A stretch of 22,261 nucleotides of DNA from a virus. The position numbers were made by a program, and so were the translations under genes. The stretch lies in the IMG/VR virus record IMGVR_UViG_3300050192_000044, positions 1 through 22,261 of that record; one strand, given 5' to 3'. The notes under the pieces are model-generated. The model was not told the origin of the DNA, made no database searches, and was given only the letters and a program-made list of their open reading frames with translations. The number at the start of each line of letters is the position of its first letter. Position 1 is the stretch's first letter. Below are positions 6,824 through 15,064 of this stretch, in pieces.

Positions 6824-9800
6824 CTAGCCCGCCCGGCCCGGCCTGATTATTCCGGTCTGCCAGTTTGCCGCGCCCTTTGCCCGGAGTCCCTTTGTTACCG
6901 CGTTGACGAGATCCTGCTGCGTAGAGACGCTGCCGTTCACCGTCATGTTTATTGTGATGTGCGTGTCTCCGCCGCCCCCGCCGCCGCCTGAGCCGCTCCC
7001 GCCGCCATGCCCGCCGCCGTAGCCCGCGTAGGCCATGCCCGGGTGGTAGGCGCCTGTCATCCGGCTGCCCATCCGGCCCACCGCGGCGACAGCCTGCCCG
7101 GCCCCGGCGTCGACGCCCATCGCCACGCCCGCGGGGACCATGGCGCCCCGCTCGGCGAACACCAGCGACGGGGACTTGATCTTGAGGTCATGCTCGATCG
7201 TCGCCACCATCGACCTGGCCATCGCCGAGATCGCCGCGTCAACCGTCCCGAGCTGGGACTCCAGGCCCTGCGCGAGACCCGCGCCCGCCTGGACCCCCGC
7301 CTGGTACATCGCCGGGCCGCCCACGCCGCCCAGCTGGGCGGCTGACGCCTGGATCTGGGATTGCAGCTTGTTGACCTGCCCGATCGCGCCCTTCCCGCCG
7401 GAGGTCAGGCCCTCAGCGACAGGCAGGCCGGACGACGCCCCGGACTGGACGATCTGGTTCAGGCTGGCCGAGTTCAGGCCCATCTTCTTCAGCTGGCCGG
7501 CCTGCTGCGCGAACTGCGCCTGGTCTGCTGCCTGCTCCTGCATCCCGGTGATGGTCGCCGAGGCGGCCAGCGGGCCGTCGCTCGCCGCGAGCGACGGGGT
7601 GTACGTGCCGGCGCTCATCACGCCGGTGCTGCTGAGCACCTGCTGGGCGATCTGCTGGGCGTCGGTGATCTCCGTCTCCAGCACGGTGCGCCGCGCCGAC
7701 AGCGACTGGAGCTTCGCATTGTCAGCCGTCAGCATCCTCGTCAGCGCCGAGTCCTGCGGCTGGCTGACCTGCCCGGCGGCCAGGGCGTGGGCCACGTCGC
7801 CCTTGAGGGTGGAGATCGTGCTGATGATCGTGGTGATGTCCTGCGGCCGGGACCCCTTGCCGGTGACGGCCTGCATGGCCGCGTCGATTGCGGAGGTGCC
7901 GCCCTGCAGGCCCTGGGTAAGGCTGGTGATGGTGGCGGCCGACAAGGTGAGCGCGGACGTCTTCACGGCGGTCGTGCCGCCGGTGATGCCCTTCGCCAGG
8001 CCGGCGGAGGTGTCCACGCCGACCGCCTCAGTGACCTTCGACGGGGAGAAGCTTTTCAGTACGCCCTTCATGGCGCCCTCGACAGCGCCTGCGACATGCT
8101 CGGCCGCGCCGACGACAGCGCCGATCCCGGCCTCGATCCCGTGCGCGAGCCCGGCGACCGCTGACGACCCGATCGATTCCAGCTCGCCCGGCATCCGCGC
8201 CAGGGCAGCCGCCGCTTTCCCGCCGATCGAGCCCACTTCGGATACGACCCGGCCGGCCCCGGACTCAGCCGCCGACGCCGCCCCGGACATGGCCGAGGAC
8301 ACCGCTGACTCCACGGCATGGAACCCGGACGACGCCGACGCGGCGGCCTTGGAGCCCGCGCCTGAAACCTCCGCCGCGATCCCCGACAGCGCCGCCCCGG
8401 CACCGGACTTCGCACTGTCGAACGCCGACTCGATCGCGTGCCCGGCCGAGGTGAACGCCCCGGTGTCCGGTGGCTTGACCTGCGCGAATTTGACGGAGTC
8501 ACCCCCGCCGCCCCCGCCTACCCGCTCCATCTGCGGGGGGCCGCCGCCGCCGAACAAGCTGGCGATCGAGTGACGCGCGTCATCGAACAGGCTGCGGGGG
8601 ATTCCCCCGGCGATCTGGCTTCCGGCCGACTGCGCCCGGCTGATGTCCTTGCCGATGTCGAGGCCGATGTTCGACAGCCCGAGCTTGCCGATGATCCCGC
8701 CGACAGCCCAGTCGGGGCTCATCGGGTTCGACTTCTGGACGTCCTGGCTGATCTGCCCGGCAGGGGTTCCCTTCGGGGCCAGCGAGTCGCTGTAGCCCCG
8801 GAGCATCAGCCCCGCCGTGACTCCCGCGGCAATCGGGGTCACCGCGGCGGCCAGGCCCGCGCCGTCCAGGCCGCCCTTGCTTGCCACCTTCGCGAACAGG
8901 CCCCCGGCGCCTGCACCTTCGGCAGTACCTGCAGCGTCCCCTTCGGCAGTCCGGGCGGCTCCGGCCTCGGCACCCGCCGCGCCGCCGGCGCTGCCCTCCT
9001 TGAGGGTTGCCGCCGCCTCGCTGAGGTCGGCCGCCGAACCGCTAAGGTCACCCGCCGAGCCCTTCAGGCCTGCCGCCGCGCCGTCGAGCCCTGAGCCCTG
9101 GCCGAGACCCGACAGCTTGGACAAGCCGGGAATGTTCAGCGTCTCCGCAACCTTGCCGACACTCGCCAGCGCAGTGGCCCCGGCGCTGGCGACCTTCCCC
9201 GCGACCGCGACGCCGGCCAGGACACCCCCGGCCTCAACGAGCGGCTTGGTCAGGCCCGGATTGCTGGCGAGGAACCCGCCGACGTCCGACAATCCGTGCA
9301 TGAGGCCCGTCAGGGCAGGCAGCGCCACCTGCCCGGCCTCGGTGGCCACGGCCTCAGTGGACTTGGTGAAGCTGCCGAGCTGGAAGTTCAGCGTCGACTG
9401 GACCGCGGACCAGCCCTTCACGTTGTCCCCGGCGTGCTGCGCGCTCGCTGCGACCGCGTCGACGTTCGCCTTGGCGGTCCCGGCGTGCTGCCCCGTCAGC
9501 ATCAGCGCCGTCTGCAGCCCGACGGTCCCGCCGAGGATCTTCGACATCGCGGCCGAGTACACCTGCGCGTCGGGCTGGCCGGACTTCAGCGCGGCGTTGA
9601 AGCCGTGGGCGGCGTTCGCCGTCGTGGCGAACTGCGAGAGCAGGTTCTTCTGGCCGGCCGATTCGGACCCGGAGAAAACCTCAGCGTTGTACTGCTTCGC
9701 CGAGATAGTCCCGTCCAGGTAGGACTGCGCGACCTTCGAGATCGCGGGCGGCATCGCCTTCATCATCGTCGTGGCGTCCTGAGCCGCCGACGCGCTCTGG

Positions 9801-11311
9801 TTGAACGTCTTGAGCATCACCAGGCCGCTGGGCCCCATGGACTTCATGACCGCCGTCTGGATCTCATCCAGGGTGCCGGTGATCCCGGTCTTGCCGAGGT
9901 TCTTGGCGATGCCGACCGGGTTCAGGCCGAGCTGCTGCATCTCCCCGGTCTGCACCGTGTTCGGGTTCTGCAGCGACCCGATGGTGTGCCGGAGGTTCTG
10001 GGCGGCCCAGTCCGGGCTCATGCCCATGCTGGTCATCGTGGCCAGTGCCCCGGCGACCTGCGGAAACGAGACGTGAGCGGCGGAGGCGACCGGCAGGACG
10101 GCAGGCAGTGCCCCGACCGCCCCGGCCATCGTCATCTTGCCCTGGCCGACCATCGTGATGATCTCGTTCATGTCCGACATGGCGGTCTGCGAGGTCGTCT
10201 TGCCCTTCTGGGGGCCGTACGCGTTCATCAGCGACGTGAGCGCGTTGCCGACCTCGGACAGCGGGGCGCCCTCAGCCTGCGCGCCCTGCGCCGCGGCCTT
10301 CAGCACGCCGAGGCCGGCCTGACCGTGGAACCCGGCCGAGTTGATCATGTACGCGCCCTGCGCCAGCTGGGACTGCGACGTGTTGGTCTCACCCGACAGC
10401 TTCAGGATCCCCGCCGAGTCCATCGGGAGGCTGGCCTGACTCTCCCCGGCGCTGGTGTACAGCCGGGTCACCTGCGTCTGGAGCTGGGCCGCCTTGTCGA
10501 CGCCGTACGCCAGCGCGGCCGCGCCGCCGAGCGCCAGCAGGTGGTACTTCGTCGCGCTGGCCTCGGCTGCGCTCGCGTCGTCAGCGGCCTGCTGGGCGGC
10601 GACCTTCCTCGCCGCCTGCTGCTGCGCCACCGCCGCGTCCTGCTCGACGCTCGAGGTGGCCAGGGAAGGTGCGGCCACGGCCATCGCCGCGTCACCCTTC
10701 GCCAGCGACAGCGAGCTATCCGCCGACCCCGCCGCGATCTTGTCCTGCATGGCGGAGGTCTCGGCGATGGTTGCGCTGATCTCCGCCCGGAGCGCCGCCA
10801 CCTGCGCGGCAGCCTCGTCCGAGGAGGTCCCGATGCCCTTGATGCCGTCGCCGACCGCGCCGAGCCCGGCGCCCTCCTCGGCTACGCCGCCGAGCGCATC
10901 ACCGAGCTTGCCGACTTCGCCGGCCGCGCCCGCAGCCCCTTCGCCGAGGTCATCGAGCTTGCCGCCGCTCTCGGCGATCTTGTCCATGCTCGCCGAGATG
11001 TCCGCCGCCGCGGTGTCGTACTTAGCGACGAGATCATCCAGCCCGGCCCCGCCTGCCAGCGCCCCGGCGTCACCGAGGCTCGCGATCTCGTCGCGGATCT
11101 TGCCGATGCTCCCCGACACCTTCGCCGCGGCATCGTTCCAGGCAGCGGCGATGTCGCCAGCCCCGGCCCCGTCAGCCGCCCCGCCTCCGAGGGAGGCCAG
11201 CTCGTCCTTGAGCTTGCCGACAGACTCTGAAGCCTTGTCGAAGGCGCCAGCCAGGTCGTCGACGGCGCCGAGGCCGGCGACATCGACGGTGATGGTCTCT
11301 TCGATCGCCAC
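6824..11311 (-). CDS. Tail tape measure protein
   Basis: This is the longest gene, 1495 residues, starting at GTG 11311 behind GGGGGGTGAG. It acts as the ruler for tail length and is threaded inside the tail tube. Residues 1-125 carry three related helical repeats (VGKLKDELASLGG; IGKIRDEIASLGD; GGKLDDLGE). Residues 160-255 are Ala/Gln-rich coiled-coil-like. A hydrophobic stretch at 256-271 (YHLLALGGAAALAYGV) precedes a phage tape-measure core at roughly 275-480 (TNTSQSQLAQGAYMINSAGF; MSPDWAAQNLRHTIGSLQNP). The C-terminal third has long Ala/Gly helices and two SPS motifs typical of these proteins (FSPSKVTEAVG and IKSPSLVFAERGAMV), then a glycine run and a beta tail with HITINMTVNGSV. No peptidase or lysozyme motif is recognised. 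Very long plus-strand frames opposite this gene are shadows. Confidence 0.95.
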   Translation of the reverse strand: MAIEETITVDVAGLGAVDDLAGAFDKASESVGKLKDELASLGGGAADGAGAGDIAAAWNDAAAKVSGSIGKIRDEIASLGDAGALAGGAGLDDLVAKYDTAAADISASMDKIAESGGKLDDLGEGAAGAAGEVGKLGDALGGVAEEGAGLGAVGDGIKGIGTSSDEAAAQVAALRAEISATIAETSAMQDKIAAGSADSSLSLAKGDAAMAVAAPSLATSSVEQDAAVAQQQAARKVAAQQAADDASAAEASATKYHLLALGGAAALAYGVDKAAQLQTQVTRLYTSAGESQASLPMDSAGILKLSGETNTSQSQLAQGAYMINSAGFHGQAGLGVLKAAAQGAQAEGAPLSEVGNALTSLMNAYGPQKGKTTSQTAMSDMNEIITMVGQGKMTMAGAVGALPAVLPVASAAHVSFPQVAGALATMTSMGMSPDWAAQNLRHTIGSLQNPNTVQTGEMQQLGLNPVGIAKNLGKTGITGTLDEIQTAVMKSMGPSGLVMLKTFNQSASAAQDATTMMKAMPPAISKVAQSYLDGTISAKQYNAEVFSGSESAGQKNLLSQFATTANAAHGFNAALKSGQPDAQVYSAAMSKILGGTVGLQTALMLTGQHAGTAKANVDAVAASAQHAGDNVKGWSAVQSTLNFQLGSFTKSTEAVATEAGQVALPALTGLMHGLSDVGGFLASNPGLTKPLVEAGGVLAGVAVAGKVASAGATALASVGKVAETLNIPGLSKLSGLGQGSGLDGAAAGLKGSAGDLSGSAADLSEAAATLKEGSAGGAAGAEAGAARTAEGDAAGTAEGAGAGGLFAKVASKGGLDGAGLAAAVTPIAAGVTAGLMLRGYSDSLAPKGTPAGQISQDVQKSNPMSPDWAVGGIIGKLGLSNIGLDIGKDISRAQSAGSQIAGGIPRSLFDDARHSIASLFGGGGPPQMERVGGGGGGDSVKFAQVKPPDTGAFTSAGHAIESAFDSAKSGAGAALSGIAAEVSGAGSKAAASASSGFHAVESAVSSAMSGAASAAESGAGRVVSEVGSIGGKAAAALARMPGELESIGSSAVAGLAHGIEAGIGAVVGAAEHVAGAVEGAMKGVLKSFSPSKVTEAVGVDTSAGLAKGITGGTTAVKTSALTLSAATITSLTQGLQGGTSAIDAAMQAVTGKGSRPQDITTIISTISTLKGDVAHALAAGQVSQPQDSALTRMLTADNAKLQSLSARRTVLETEITDAQQIAQQVLSSTGVMSAGTYTPSLAASDGPLAASATITGMQEQAADQAQFAQQAGQLKKMGLNSASLNQIVQSGASSGLPVAEGLTSGGKGAIGQVNKLQSQIQASAAQLGGVGGPAMYQAGVQAGAGLAQGLESQLGTVDAAISAMARSMVATIEHDLKIKSPSLVFAERGAMVPAGVAMGVDAGAGQAVAAVGRMGSRMTGAYHPGMAYAGYGGGHGGGSGSGGGGGGGDTHITINMTVNGSVSTQQDLVNAVTKGLRAKGAANWQTGIIRPGRAG

Positions 11312-11372: not shown

Positions 11373-11798
11373 TCAGAGCGTCAGGTACTCGGCCAGGATG
11401 ATCTGCATTGCCGCGGGCATCGTCCCCCGGACCTCATCCTCCGCGCGCTCCATGTAATGACTGCCGGCCTGGGTAACCGACCCGCCGGGCCGGCTGAATA
11501 CCTGCCCGGTCGCCGCGTTCCGCAAGGGCCACGGACCCTTCGCGGTGATCGTCCCGCCGTCGTTGCGGAACCGGCCGTAGATGATGTGCGGCGCTACGAC
11601 CGCGGTCGCATGGGTCCCGGAGCCGAACACCGCGTCGACGTGCTCCGAGCGCCGCAGTGCCCCGGACAGGACCGGGGTCGTGACGTCGAGACCGGCGAGG
11701 TACTCCTTCGACCCCGCCTTCGCGCAGTCCAGGGCAAGGGACTCCTCGCAGTGCTCCGCCATCTCGCGGTATGCCGTCGCTGCTTCGGAGAGGTTCAC
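11373..11798 (-). CDS. HK97 gp10-like minor structural protein
   Basis: The 141-residue protein starts at GTG 11798; this GTGA overlaps the TGA that ends the chaperone frameshift frame, so the two are likely coupled. The motif TPVLSGALRRSEHV followed by HIIYGRFRNDGGTI resembles the P-x-xSGxLxxS...Y..xxNGG pattern of the HK97 gp10 family, small proteins that act at the head-tail joint or tail terminus. Position is unusual: gp10-like genes normally lie before the tail tube, whereas this one lies between the chaperone and the tape measure. It could instead be a divergent tail-tube capping or chaperone-associated protein. Family call is moderate. Confidence 0.6.
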   Translation of the reverse strand: MNLSEAATAYREMAEHCEESLALDCAKAGSKEYLAGLDVTTPVLSGALRRSEHVDAVFGSGTHATAVVAPHIIYGRFRNDGGTITAKGPWPLRNAATGQVFSRPGGSVTQAGSHYMERAEDEVRGTMPAAMQIILAEYLTL

Positions 11799-12411
11799 CG
11801 GCCGCCCCCGTTCTGGATCGCCCTCAGCGTGTAGGCCACCGCATCGAGGACCCCGGCAACAGGGATGGGGATGTCATCGGGGGTGGCGGGGTGGATCCAC
11901 CCTTCGGCTATCCAGCGGGCGTGGCGGATGGTGCGGGGGCTGAGGCCTCCGGGGGGGCGGCGGCACTGGCCGAGGAGGTACTGCCTGAGGTGGGGGCCGA
12001 AGGCTGGGTCTCTTTTGGGACATTTCCGTTGAGGATTTCAAAATACGGATCCAGGGCCTTCAGCAGCGCGTTCCACACGACCAGGCCGCCTGCGGTGGCG
12101 AGGCGATTCCGCGACCCGGCGTCCCACGGGAGAATGCCAGGGAATGAGATGCCCTGCACGATCCACTGGCATACCAGGTCGTGAACGGGCTTAAGGTCCC
12201 GCCGCAGCAGCCTGACCGAGGGGGGCGGAGCGTCCGGGTCGGGTACCGCCCCCGGGTACGCAGCCGCCGCAACGGCTATCGCGGCCTTCTCCTTGGCGTC
12301 GATGATCTCCAGGCGAAGATCCTGGTAATCGTCCTGCTGACTCGGCTGGAGCGTCGCGGGGTTCTTGATGTCCGCCAGATCGACCCATCCGCCGGGCAGG
12401 GGAATCTGCAT
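11795..12411 (-). CDS. Tail assembly chaperone, long product by -1 frameshift
   Basis: Ribosomes starting at ATG 12411 and slipping back one base at 12013-12019 would make a 205-residue product: 133 shared residues, then 72 from the -1 frame. The second frame reads sensibly (DPAFGPHLRQYLLGQC, LSPRTIRHARWIAEGW, IPVAGVLDAVAYTLRAIQNG) and ends at TGA 11795-11797, overlapping the next start. It has no good start codon of its own. This matches the G/GT arrangement known in long-tailed phages, in which short and long chaperones bind the tape measure and help polymerise the tail tube. The gene order (tube, chaperone, then tape measure nearby) agrees. Join: 12013-12411 then 11795-12013, with base 12013 read twice. 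Confidence 0.8.
11908..12411 (-). CDS. Tail assembly chaperone, short product
   Basis: The unshifted frame gives 167 residues from ATG 12411 to TAG 11908-11910. The N-terminal 133 residues have normal protein character (GGWVDLADIKNPATLQPSQQ; LRRDLKPVHDLVCQWIVQGI; NRLATAGGLVVWNALLKALD). The last 34 residues, after the slippery site, are low-complexity Ala/Pro/Ser/Thr. That contrast suggests the downstream DNA is constrained mainly by the -1 frame. The role is the short (G-like) tail chaperone. The start has only a weak upstream GAAAGCGAG as ribosome binding site. Confidence 0.8.
   Translation of the reverse strand: MQIPLPGGWVDLADIKNPATLQPSQQDDYQDLRLEIIDAKEKAAIAVAAAAYPGAVPDPDAPPPSVRLLRRDLKPVHDLVCQWIVQGISFPGILPWDAGSRNRLATAGGLVVWNALLKALDPYFEILNGNVPKETQPSAPTSGSTSSASAAAPPEASAPAPSATPAG
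12013..12019 (-). promoter_or_regulatory. CCCAAAA slippery heptamer for -1 frameshift
   Basis: On the minus strand the zero frame reads gtC CCA AAA gag, an exact X XXY YYZ heptamer with X=C, Y=A and Z=A. Slipping one base back keeps CCC and AAA pairing and enters the 72-codon chaperone frame. I did not find by eye a strong hairpin or pseudoknot just downstream; this GC-rich stretch should be folded computationally. Confidence 0.8.
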
Positions 12412-12470
12412 TGTGCTCGCTTTCGTGTTCGGGTAAGCGCCGCAGGGTACGTAAAGTAGCGTAGAGGTGA

Positions 12471-13736
12471 CTACGCGTAAGTTGGTAGTGCGTTTTGCAA
12501 CGTTATGGAGCAGGGGGATCGGCCTCCGGAGTTACCACTGTTAGTTACGTTCGAAACGAAATCTCCCGAAACATCGAAGCCAAAAAATTCGTCCCCCGAC
12601 AGCGGCGCCGTCTTGTACGCGGCCTGGTTAGCAGCCAGCGCGAACGACCACAGGCCCGTTCCGCTGCCGCCATTGCCGATTGACCACGCCAGGGTCGGCT
12701 GCGCGTTCGTCAGCATGTTCGTCAGCGCGCTCTCATCCAAAGCCGGGTCGTACGTGAGCTTGAACGAGCAGTCGAAGTTGCCCCTGCCGATCAGGTAGGG
12801 CTGCTGGTACCCGTCGCCCGTGTTCTTCGGCGTGACCTTGCGGGTCAGGGTGGCTGACCACACCGTGATGTCGTCCAGGAGCGTGGATGCGACCGTGGTC
12901 GTGCTCTTCCAGCCCGGGATCATGCGGACAGCGCTGAAGCCCGGCACCGGGATAAACGACGGGTAGGCCTTGGCGTAGCTCGTCACCTTGCCCGACCAGG
13001 TGAGGATCCCCGACGCCTTGGCGTTGATGGTGATCTCGCTCATGCACCCGTACGGGAACAGCCACGCGTAGTTGTTGCCCGCGCCGGGGATGTTGTTGCG
13101 GTGGATGAGCGAATGGGTCGGCCCCTGCCCGGTGACGACCCCCGTGCTGCCGTAGGGGTTGAGCAGGGAGAACGTGTGGCTGAAGGGTGCGATGACCGTC
13201 ACCACGGCGATGGTGGTCAGGTGGGAGAAGCGCAGCGGCGTCGTCGCGTCCAGCACGATGGAAGTCGCCGTCGACCCGGTGCCGACCTTCACGACCTCCG
13301 CGTTGACGCCGGTGTCAACCTGGATGAGCGTCCCGGCCACGGCGGAGGTCGCGGACGTGACCGCGACCGGCCCCGCCCCGGCCGTCAGCGCCCCCGATGT
13401 CGTCCACGTCGGCGTGCTCGCGGTCCCGGTCTCCACGAGATCGGACATCAGGTTATACAAAAAATGGCCGAACGTATCGCAGTAGAGGGGGCTCTCGGCG
13501 ATGTCGGACTCAGCCCACAGGGGTCCCTGCTGCACGTCGTGAGTTTTGGTGAAGTCGCCCCACATGCTGCCGTCTTCTACCCACGTGACCTTGTTGTCCG
13601 GCTTGAAGTCCACGATCGGCGCGCTGGCAAAGGCGGCCTGGGCGGGAGTGACCCCGAATCCGCCCGATTCCAGGCCGATCTGCAGGAGCTGCGTGCACTT
13701 CGGGTACACGCCAACCGGGGGCGAGGGGGCAGCCAT
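12471..13736 (-). CDS. Major tail tube protein
   Basis: A 421-residue protein from ATG 13736, placed just before the tail chaperone, where tail tube genes normally lie. The N-terminus (YPKCTQLLQIGLESG, then TWVEDGSMWGDFTKTHDVQQ) and the C-terminal half (YGCMSEITINAKASGILTWS; WSATLTRKVTPKNTGDGYQQ; FDCSFKLTYD) fit a tube protein of siphovirus type, stacking as rings around the tape measure. It is long for the family because of an extra beta module at residues 122-182 that resembles one in the connector. The last 40 or so codons are markedly less GC-rich than the rest. Length, position and style support the call; there is no single diagnostic motif. Confidence 0.8.
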   Translation of the reverse strand: MAAPSPPVGVYPKCTQLLQIGLESGGFGVTPAQAAFASAPIVDFKPDNKVTWVEDGSMWGDFTKTHDVQQGPLWAESDIAESPLYCDTFGHFLYNLMSDLVETGTASTPTWTTSGALTAGAGPVAVTSATSAVAGTLIQVDTGVNAEVVKVGTGSTATSIVLDATTPLRFSHLTTIAVVTVIAPFSHTFSLLNPYGSTGVVTGQGPTHSLIHRNNIPGAGNNYAWLFPYGCMSEITINAKASGILTWSGKVTSYAKAYPSFIPVPGFSAVRMIPGWKSTTTVASTLLDDITVWSATLTRKVTPKNTGDGYQQPYLIGRGNFDCSFKLTYDPALDESALTNMLTNAQPTLAWSIGNGGSGTGLWSFALAANQAAYKTAPLSGDEFFGFDVSGDFVSNVTNSGNSGGRSPCSITLQNALPTYA

Positions 13737-14122: not shown

Positions 14123-14557
14123 ATGGCGGCCATGAGCAGCACGAAGGGGGCAGCGGCGTGGCCTGAGGGGACGCTGCCCGCGATCCTCGAGCCCTGGATA
14201 CGGGTCACCATCACCGGTCCGGCGATGGGATGGGGCGGGCAGGTGATCCAGGTCGCCGGGTACGTCAAGGGGCCGGAGACCGTAGGCGACACCGGCGCGG
14301 ACATCGACGCGCTGGTCGGCCGCAGCCATCAGCGGTTCACCGACGGGCTGGCCCGGGCCACCCGGGAGACGATGTACCGGCAGGCCGAGGAGGCGATCGA
14401 GGCCGCGCTAGAGGCCGGGTGGGTCCTCGCCGGGCACCCGGAGATCAGGGTCGGCGGCACGGTCAACCGCGACCGCGACACGGGCGTTGATGTCCCGATG
14501 GCCGAGGTGGGCGTCGCGCTGCACTTCCGCGCGCCTAGCCCGCCGGATCAGGAATAA
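14123..14557 (+). CDS. Plus-strand protein of unknown function (144 aa)
   Basis: ATG at 14123 gives 144 residues; an in-frame ATG at 14132 is almost as good, so the start is uncertain. It diverges from the 112-residue minus-strand gene with a 45-base gap. The sequence looks real: ILEPWIRVTITGPAMGWGGQ, then an acidic/helical middle (TYR-containing ETMYRQAEEAIEAALEAGW) and a C-terminal strand AEVGVALHFRAP. I do not recognise a family. It is followed after 9 bases by another plus-strand gene, so the pair probably forms one unit. Confidence 0.65.
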   Translation: MAAMSSTKGAAAWPEGTLPAILEPWIRVTITGPAMGWGGQVIQVAGYVKGPETVGDTGADIDALVGRSHQRFTDGLARATRETMYRQAEEAIEAALEAGWVLAGHPEIRVGGTVNRDRDTGVDVPMAEVGVALHFRAPSPPDQE

Positions 14558-14566
14558 TCGCTTCCC

Positions 14567-15064
14567 ATGACGACCCCTCAGCCTGAGCCCGCCCGCGGCA
14601 ATGACGGCTCCTCCGCCCCTGACGGCTTCCTCTCCGGCATCCCGCAGCAGATCGGCCAGGCGGTGGCCGCTGCCGTCGCGCAGGTCCTGCAGCAGGTCCC
14701 CATGCGCGTTCAGCAGCTCAAGTGCGCGACATGCGTCCTGGCCCGGGCCCAGTGGGCAGCAGCCCACGCTGCCGACATCAAGGCCGCCGGGGAGCGGATG
14801 GCGGAGGCGCTGGCAGCTTTCCCGCCGGATCACCCGATCCGCCAGCAGGCGGACCTCGTGGCGTTCCTGCCGCCGCACCTGCACCCCGGGGCGGGCCCGG
14901 AGTCGATGCCGCCCGTCCAGGACGGGGCCGTGATGACCGCGGGGACGATCGTGTGCCCCGCGCACATCCCCGGCATACCGCAGGCGGGCGGGGGGCGCAG
15001 GGAGTTCCTGATCGCCAACGGGTCCCTGTCCGCGACGATGCTCGCGGAGATGGCCAGGCGCTAA
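14567..15064 (+). CDS. Plus-strand protein with CxxC and CxxH pairs (165 aa)
   Basis: ATG at 14567 opens a 165-residue frame ending at TAA 15062-15064. The N-terminus is disordered (Pro/Gly/Ser), followed by a helix (IPQQIGQAVAAAVAQVLQQV). Cys53 and Cys56 (CATC) and Cys130 with His133 (CPAH) could together bind one zinc ion, separated by an Ala-rich helical region. The stop codon overlaps the stop of the convergent minus-strand neck gene by four bases. I do not recognise the family; a small zinc-binding protein is an inference from residues only. Confidence 0.65.
   Translation: MTTPQPEPARGNDGSSAPDGFLSGIPQQIGQAVAAAVAQVLQQVPMRVQQLKCATCVLARAQWAAAHAADIKAAGERMAEALAAFPPDHPIRQQADLVAFLPPHLHPGAGPESMPPVQDGAVMTAGTIVCPAHIPGIPQAGGGRREFLIANGSLSATMLAEMARR

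Follow-up and report, generated by a model that had tools for sequence, protein, structure and literature searches.

A predicted lambda-like −1 frameshift in a putative tail assembly chaperone gene of an uncultivated long-tailed phage

A frameshift in the tail assembly genes is already known to be widely conserved among long-tailed phages, and Xu, Hendrix and Duda reportedly described it in 2004 as a conserved feature of the dsDNA phages. The mechanism is exemplified by gpG and gpGT of lambda. The upstream open reading frame (ORF) of this pair is flanked by the genes for the major tail protein and the tape measure protein, and a −1 slip near its 3′ end, at the sequence G GGA AAG, adds a C-terminal extension that has no start codon of its own. 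In Burkholderia phage KL1 (gp18/gp19), as in HK97 and SPP1, a further tail gene follows the frameshifted pair and precedes the tape measure gene (PMC3483164); the KL1 slip site is GGGAAAC. Frameshifted tail ORFs are reported to be poorly similar between phages (PMC5009743).

Here we analyse a stretch of 22,261 nucleotides (the window) that constitutes an IMG/VR record of an uncultivated long-tailed phage (IMGVR_UViG_3300050192_000044). From its sequence and that of its relatives, we consider it very probable (about 0.93) that the minus-strand interval 12411–11908 is a G-like chaperone gene with a programmed −1 frameshift, and that a minority product would be a 205-residue G–T fusion resembling lambda gpGT. 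A first-pass annotation had proposed such a frameshift, and the positions and lengths that it gave are all correct. The mechanism itself is already known, and the locus is a member of the lambda G/GT class that is not recognised by sequence. Like lambda, it has an upstream ORF between the major tail protein and tape measure genes, a candidate slip site near the 3′ end of that ORF and a startless C-terminal extension. It differs from lambda in its slip site, C CCA AAA, and in the neck/tail-completion gene that separates its fusion from the tape measure gene.

Slip site and reading frames

The zero-frame ORF starts at the ATG at 12411, ends at 11908 (minus strand) and encodes a 167-residue protein that we predict to be a lambda G-like tail assembly chaperone. 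Residues 1–133 extend up to and including the slip site. The final 34 residues form a low-complexity tail, as the first-pass annotation had pointed out, and are poorly conserved. The minus strand of the window contains a single CCCAAAA heptamer, at 12019–12013, where the zero-frame codons are GTC CCA AAA GAG. This reading places the heptamer in X XXY YYZ phase, such that the P-site and A-site codons are both able to re-pair after a −1 slip. The proposal of an exact and correctly phased slippery heptamer is thus borne out.

The −1 segment (12013–11795, minus strand) comprises 72 codons followed by a TGA stop, and a −1 shift would join it to the G part as a predicted T-like domain. Recomputing both products from the zero-frame ORF and the −1 path returns the proposed lengths of 167 and 205 residues. 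The stop codon (TGA, 11797–11795) overlaps the GTG start of the next ORF at 11798, again as first described. Upstream, the −1 frame is closed by a stop 21 nt before the heptamer, and no ATG, GTG or TTG codon lies between that stop and the site. The segment itself contains a single such codon, a GTG at index 58 of its 72 codons, in agreement with the earlier view that the frame has no good start of its own.

At the base composition of the window, 72 open codons would arise by chance in about 36% of cases, and an open −1 frame by itself therefore counts for little. When the codons of the zero-frame ORF are shuffled, an in-phase C CCA AAA turns up in only about 0.5% of cases, and conservation of the arrangement in nine lineages (below) removes chance as an explanation.

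The first −1 codon past the slip (window 12011–12013, minus strand) is AGA and encodes an invariant arginine, spelled AGG in lineage L024. AGA does not occur in the zero-frame structural genes of the window that were counted.

Gene neighbourhood and identity of the products

Directly upstream of the G gene, at 12471–13736 (minus strand), lies the gene for a 421-residue major tail protein, assigned by profile comparison with the protein that is annotated in this role in Arthrobacter phage Mufasa8 (E = 1.7e-8 in that single comparison). The next gene downstream (11373–11798, minus strand) matches the tail-completion/Neck1 (HK97 gp10-like) family phrog_5 (E = 5.6e-5), and its match to the Pfam family HK97-gp10_like is below the cut-off. 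It is followed by the gene for a 1,495-residue tape measure protein (6824–11311, minus strand; phrog_2723, E = 2e-53; PhageMin_Tail, E = 3e-24) that shares 38% identity with the Mufasa8 tape measure protein over 416 aligned positions. The gene order is therefore major tail protein, G, T, neck, tape measure. This order supports the proposed lambda G/GT-like chaperone frameshift as far as position between the major tail protein and tape measure genes is concerned. The lambda-like context is departed from in the one extra gene before the tape measure gene.

Inside the minus-strand structural cluster, the plus strand carries two protein-like ORFs (14123–14557 and 14567–15064), neither with a significant match in Pfam or PHROGs.

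Searches of Pfam and PHROGs with the G and T parts matched no known tail chaperone, a profile search of solved structures gave no match, and tblastn of phage records found no relative. We modelled the two parts separately with AlphaFold, using the nine-sequence alignments as inputs. The T domain is predicted to form three helices (mean pLDDT 89.0) and the G domain (residues 1–133) a mixed, mainly helical fold (pLDDT 84.6). A fold search with the T model against BFVD and with the G model against BFVD and the PDB returned no E value below 0.8; weak matches named as tail assembly chaperones had non-significant E values of 2.7 and above. In contrast to the shared architecture, these comparisons detected no similarity of the protein to a known chaperone, in either sequence or fold. 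The chaperone role consequently rests on position, on architecture and on a remote match to gp13 of Mufasa8 and another Arthrobacter phage, Sonali.

The capsid proteins of Sonali (MK411746) and Mufasa8 (MN586027) are 39–41% identical to that of the window, and the Mufasa8 tape measure and major tail proteins are related to those of the window. The gene order in both phages also corresponds: major tail protein, gp13, gp14, a minor capsid or hypothetical protein, and tape measure. The product of gp13, a hypothetical protein, matches the G part of the window by profile (E = 3.7e-5 in one comparison). The T-part profile gave a non-significant match to the Sonali and Mufasa8 T parts (E = 0.067). 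Sonali has C CCT TTT in the same phase near the end of gp13 (at 12488), and the Mufasa8 junction has no perfect XXXYYYZ site. The −1 frame is open across the end of gp13 in both phages, and the two are homologous to each other in this frame upstream of the annotated start of gp14. The deposited records leave gp13 and gp14 unjoined and annotate no frameshift. Judged on these features, gp13 and gp14 (12047–12747 in Mufasa8 and 12051–12748 in Sonali) seem to represent a single frameshifted gene whose two parts were deposited as separate hypothetical ORFs, which suggests that the frameshift has been missed in two cultured phages.

The −1 frameshift might be genuine and yet produce something other than a chaperone, such as a neck protein or a different tail factor. 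Such an identity would accord with the failure to match any known chaperone by sequence or fold, and with the gene that separates the fusion from the tape measure gene. We nevertheless consider it improbable, because the gene directly follows that for the major tail protein, has a frameshifted two-product architecture and remotely matches the gene at the same position in Mufasa8 and Sonali, and because an intervening gene has the precedents noted above.

Conservation and the origin of the second frame

Searching viral contigs with the G and T parts identified three further IMG/VR contigs, identical to the window in the slip region, and one relative (L005/L006). A search with the upstream major tail protein, which presupposes no frameshift, added L016, L017, L018/L019, L021, L023 and L024, and a profile search with the same protein added L028. 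Final scans with the L024 and L028 proteins found no further lineage. The nine lineages compared are the window, L005, L016, L017, L018, L021, L023, L024 and L028. One candidate, L012, was rejected on its ORFs as a chance match antisense to a recombinase-type gene. No recognisable G/T pair lies near the partial major tail protein match in L025, and a scan of genome contigs with the profile of the major tail protein turned up nothing beyond a short stretch of similarity in a Clostridiales MAG (L026).

The octamer CCCAAAAG, comprising the heptamer and the next G, is present at the same codon and in phase in all nine lineages. It is the only run of invariant columns between 30 nt upstream of the site and 60 nt from its first base, and, C CCA AAA apart, no in-phase X XXY YYN site in which Y is A or T occurs in the nine G genes. 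The first-pass annotation had named a −1 frame that relatives fail to conserve as grounds for refutation. The proposal passes this test, because the exact heptamer is accompanied by a homologous −1 segment, 70–74 codons long, in 9/9 lineages. The zero-frame proteins of the other eight share only 22–70% identity with that of the window. Past the site, the zero frame continues for 34, 8, 34, 12, 12, 12, 4, 23 and 30 codons in the nine lineages, the stop in L005 coming already eight codons after it. That the zero-frame tail varies from 4 to 34 codons while the −1 segment stays at 70–74 indicates that the tail is dispensable and the −1 segment is not. The overlapping −1 ORF has no start of its own and is conserved as protein.

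The window and L005 are identical over about 26 nt surrounding the stop of the zero frame (window 11895–11920, minus strand). This block includes the −1 frame codons ATA, GAA and GGG, and the more distant lineages do not conserve it. In L017, L018, L019, L021 and L024, an interval of about 1–1.7 kb that the window lacks separates the major tail protein gene from the chaperone gene; the two of these that were scanned, in L018 (7275–8519) and L021 (2909–3811), each contain an HNH endonuclease gene on the opposite strand (phrog_374, E = 7e-40 and 1e-43, respectively).

Differences in the −1 segment fall mainly at third codon positions of the −1 frame. The counts at positions 1, 2 and 3 are 9, 5 and 26 between the window and L005, 5, 4 and 22 between L017 and L018, and 3, 1 and 21 between L017 and L021 (chi-square p, 9e-5 to 5e-7 across these three close pairs). 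The dN/dS ratio of the segment is about 0.06–0.25 in close pairs. By these measures the −1 segment is under strong purifying selection. Both codons of the slip site are also uncommon: CCA accounts for 6 of 239 proline codons (2.5%) and AAA for 8 of 147 lysine codons (5.4%) in the window genes, and outside the slip site the nine G genes use CCA at 2/110 and AAA at 5/37. Because both codons are rare in the window genes, a requirement for Pro-Lys alone would not preserve CCA AAA.

The −1 frame could instead be a separate gene, expressed from an internal start by re-initiation or translational coupling; this is how the Sonali and Mufasa8 records list it, as a small ORF of its own (gp14). We regard this as highly improbable. 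In L017, L018, L023 and L024, as in the window, no ATG, GTG or TTG lies between the preceding −1 stop and the site, and internal start codons are scattered, with none common to the lineages. The lineages are homologous in the −1 frame from the slip site itself onwards, and in Sonali and Mufasa8 the homology sets in before the annotated gp14 start. Re-initiation would also leave the retention of the rare codons CCA AAA unexplained. Transcriptional slippage, which likewise yields mixed frames at short homopolymers, could join the frames without ribosomal frameshifting. RNA polymerase slippage usually requires about eight or more A or T residues, whereas the run here is only AAAA and the conserved element is a tandem-tRNA heptamer rather than a homopolymer, making this origin more improbable still. 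The contigs are metagenome-derived, but the likelihood that errors of sequencing or assembly, or decay of the gene, account for the two-frame layout is negligible given the three identical contigs, the same junction in eight divergent lineages and purifying selection on the −1 frame.

Proposed mechanism and significance

We infer the occurrence of the shift, its efficiency and the binding roles of its products from these features and from lambda. In the frameshift model, the majority of ribosomes would complete the zero frame to give the 167-residue protein. A minority would slip back one base on C CCA AAA, with tRNA-Pro moving from CCA to CCC and tRNA-Lys from AAA to AAA, and would then read 72 more codons to produce the 205-residue G–T fusion. 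By analogy with lambda, the G part would coat the tape measure protein and the T part would recruit the major tail protein; through these two binding roles the ratio of G to G–T would tune tail assembly, and both products would be absent from the finished virion.

Folding of the RNA downstream of 12013, suggested in the first-pass annotation as a check, revealed no structure that stands out. For the 90 nt downstream of the site in the nine lineages, folding z scores relative to shuffles range from −1.25 to 0.87, none of them significant, and folding of the alignment gave a consensus energy of only −1.34 kcal/mol and no common structure. A conserved downstream stem-loop of the dnaX kind was thus not found by this folding, which covered pseudoknot-free structures, and by eye no Shine–Dalgarno-like element is conserved in the 20 nt 5′ of the heptamer. 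The locus resembles other members of the tail-assembly frameshift class in this regard: according to a review of such frameshifts, some tailed phages apparently shift frame with no stimulator, and the site C_CCA_AAG is highly shift-prone in E. coli (PMC5009743). A bolder reading is that the chaperone family is unrelated by sequence or fold to known ones and that its frameshifting is set by tRNA supply alone, three consecutive rare codons (CCA, AAA and the −1 frame AGA) replacing an RNA stimulator; we find this doubtful.

The lambda-like frameshift, if it operates as predicted, corrects the annotation of a gene that automatic callers truncate. It would extend the conserved tail frameshift to a group of phages with no recognised chaperone family, and it leads us to predict a fusion that the records of two cultured Arthrobacter phages do not annotate. 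The nine lineages would also provide a natural series for a slip site that seemingly works without RNA structure.
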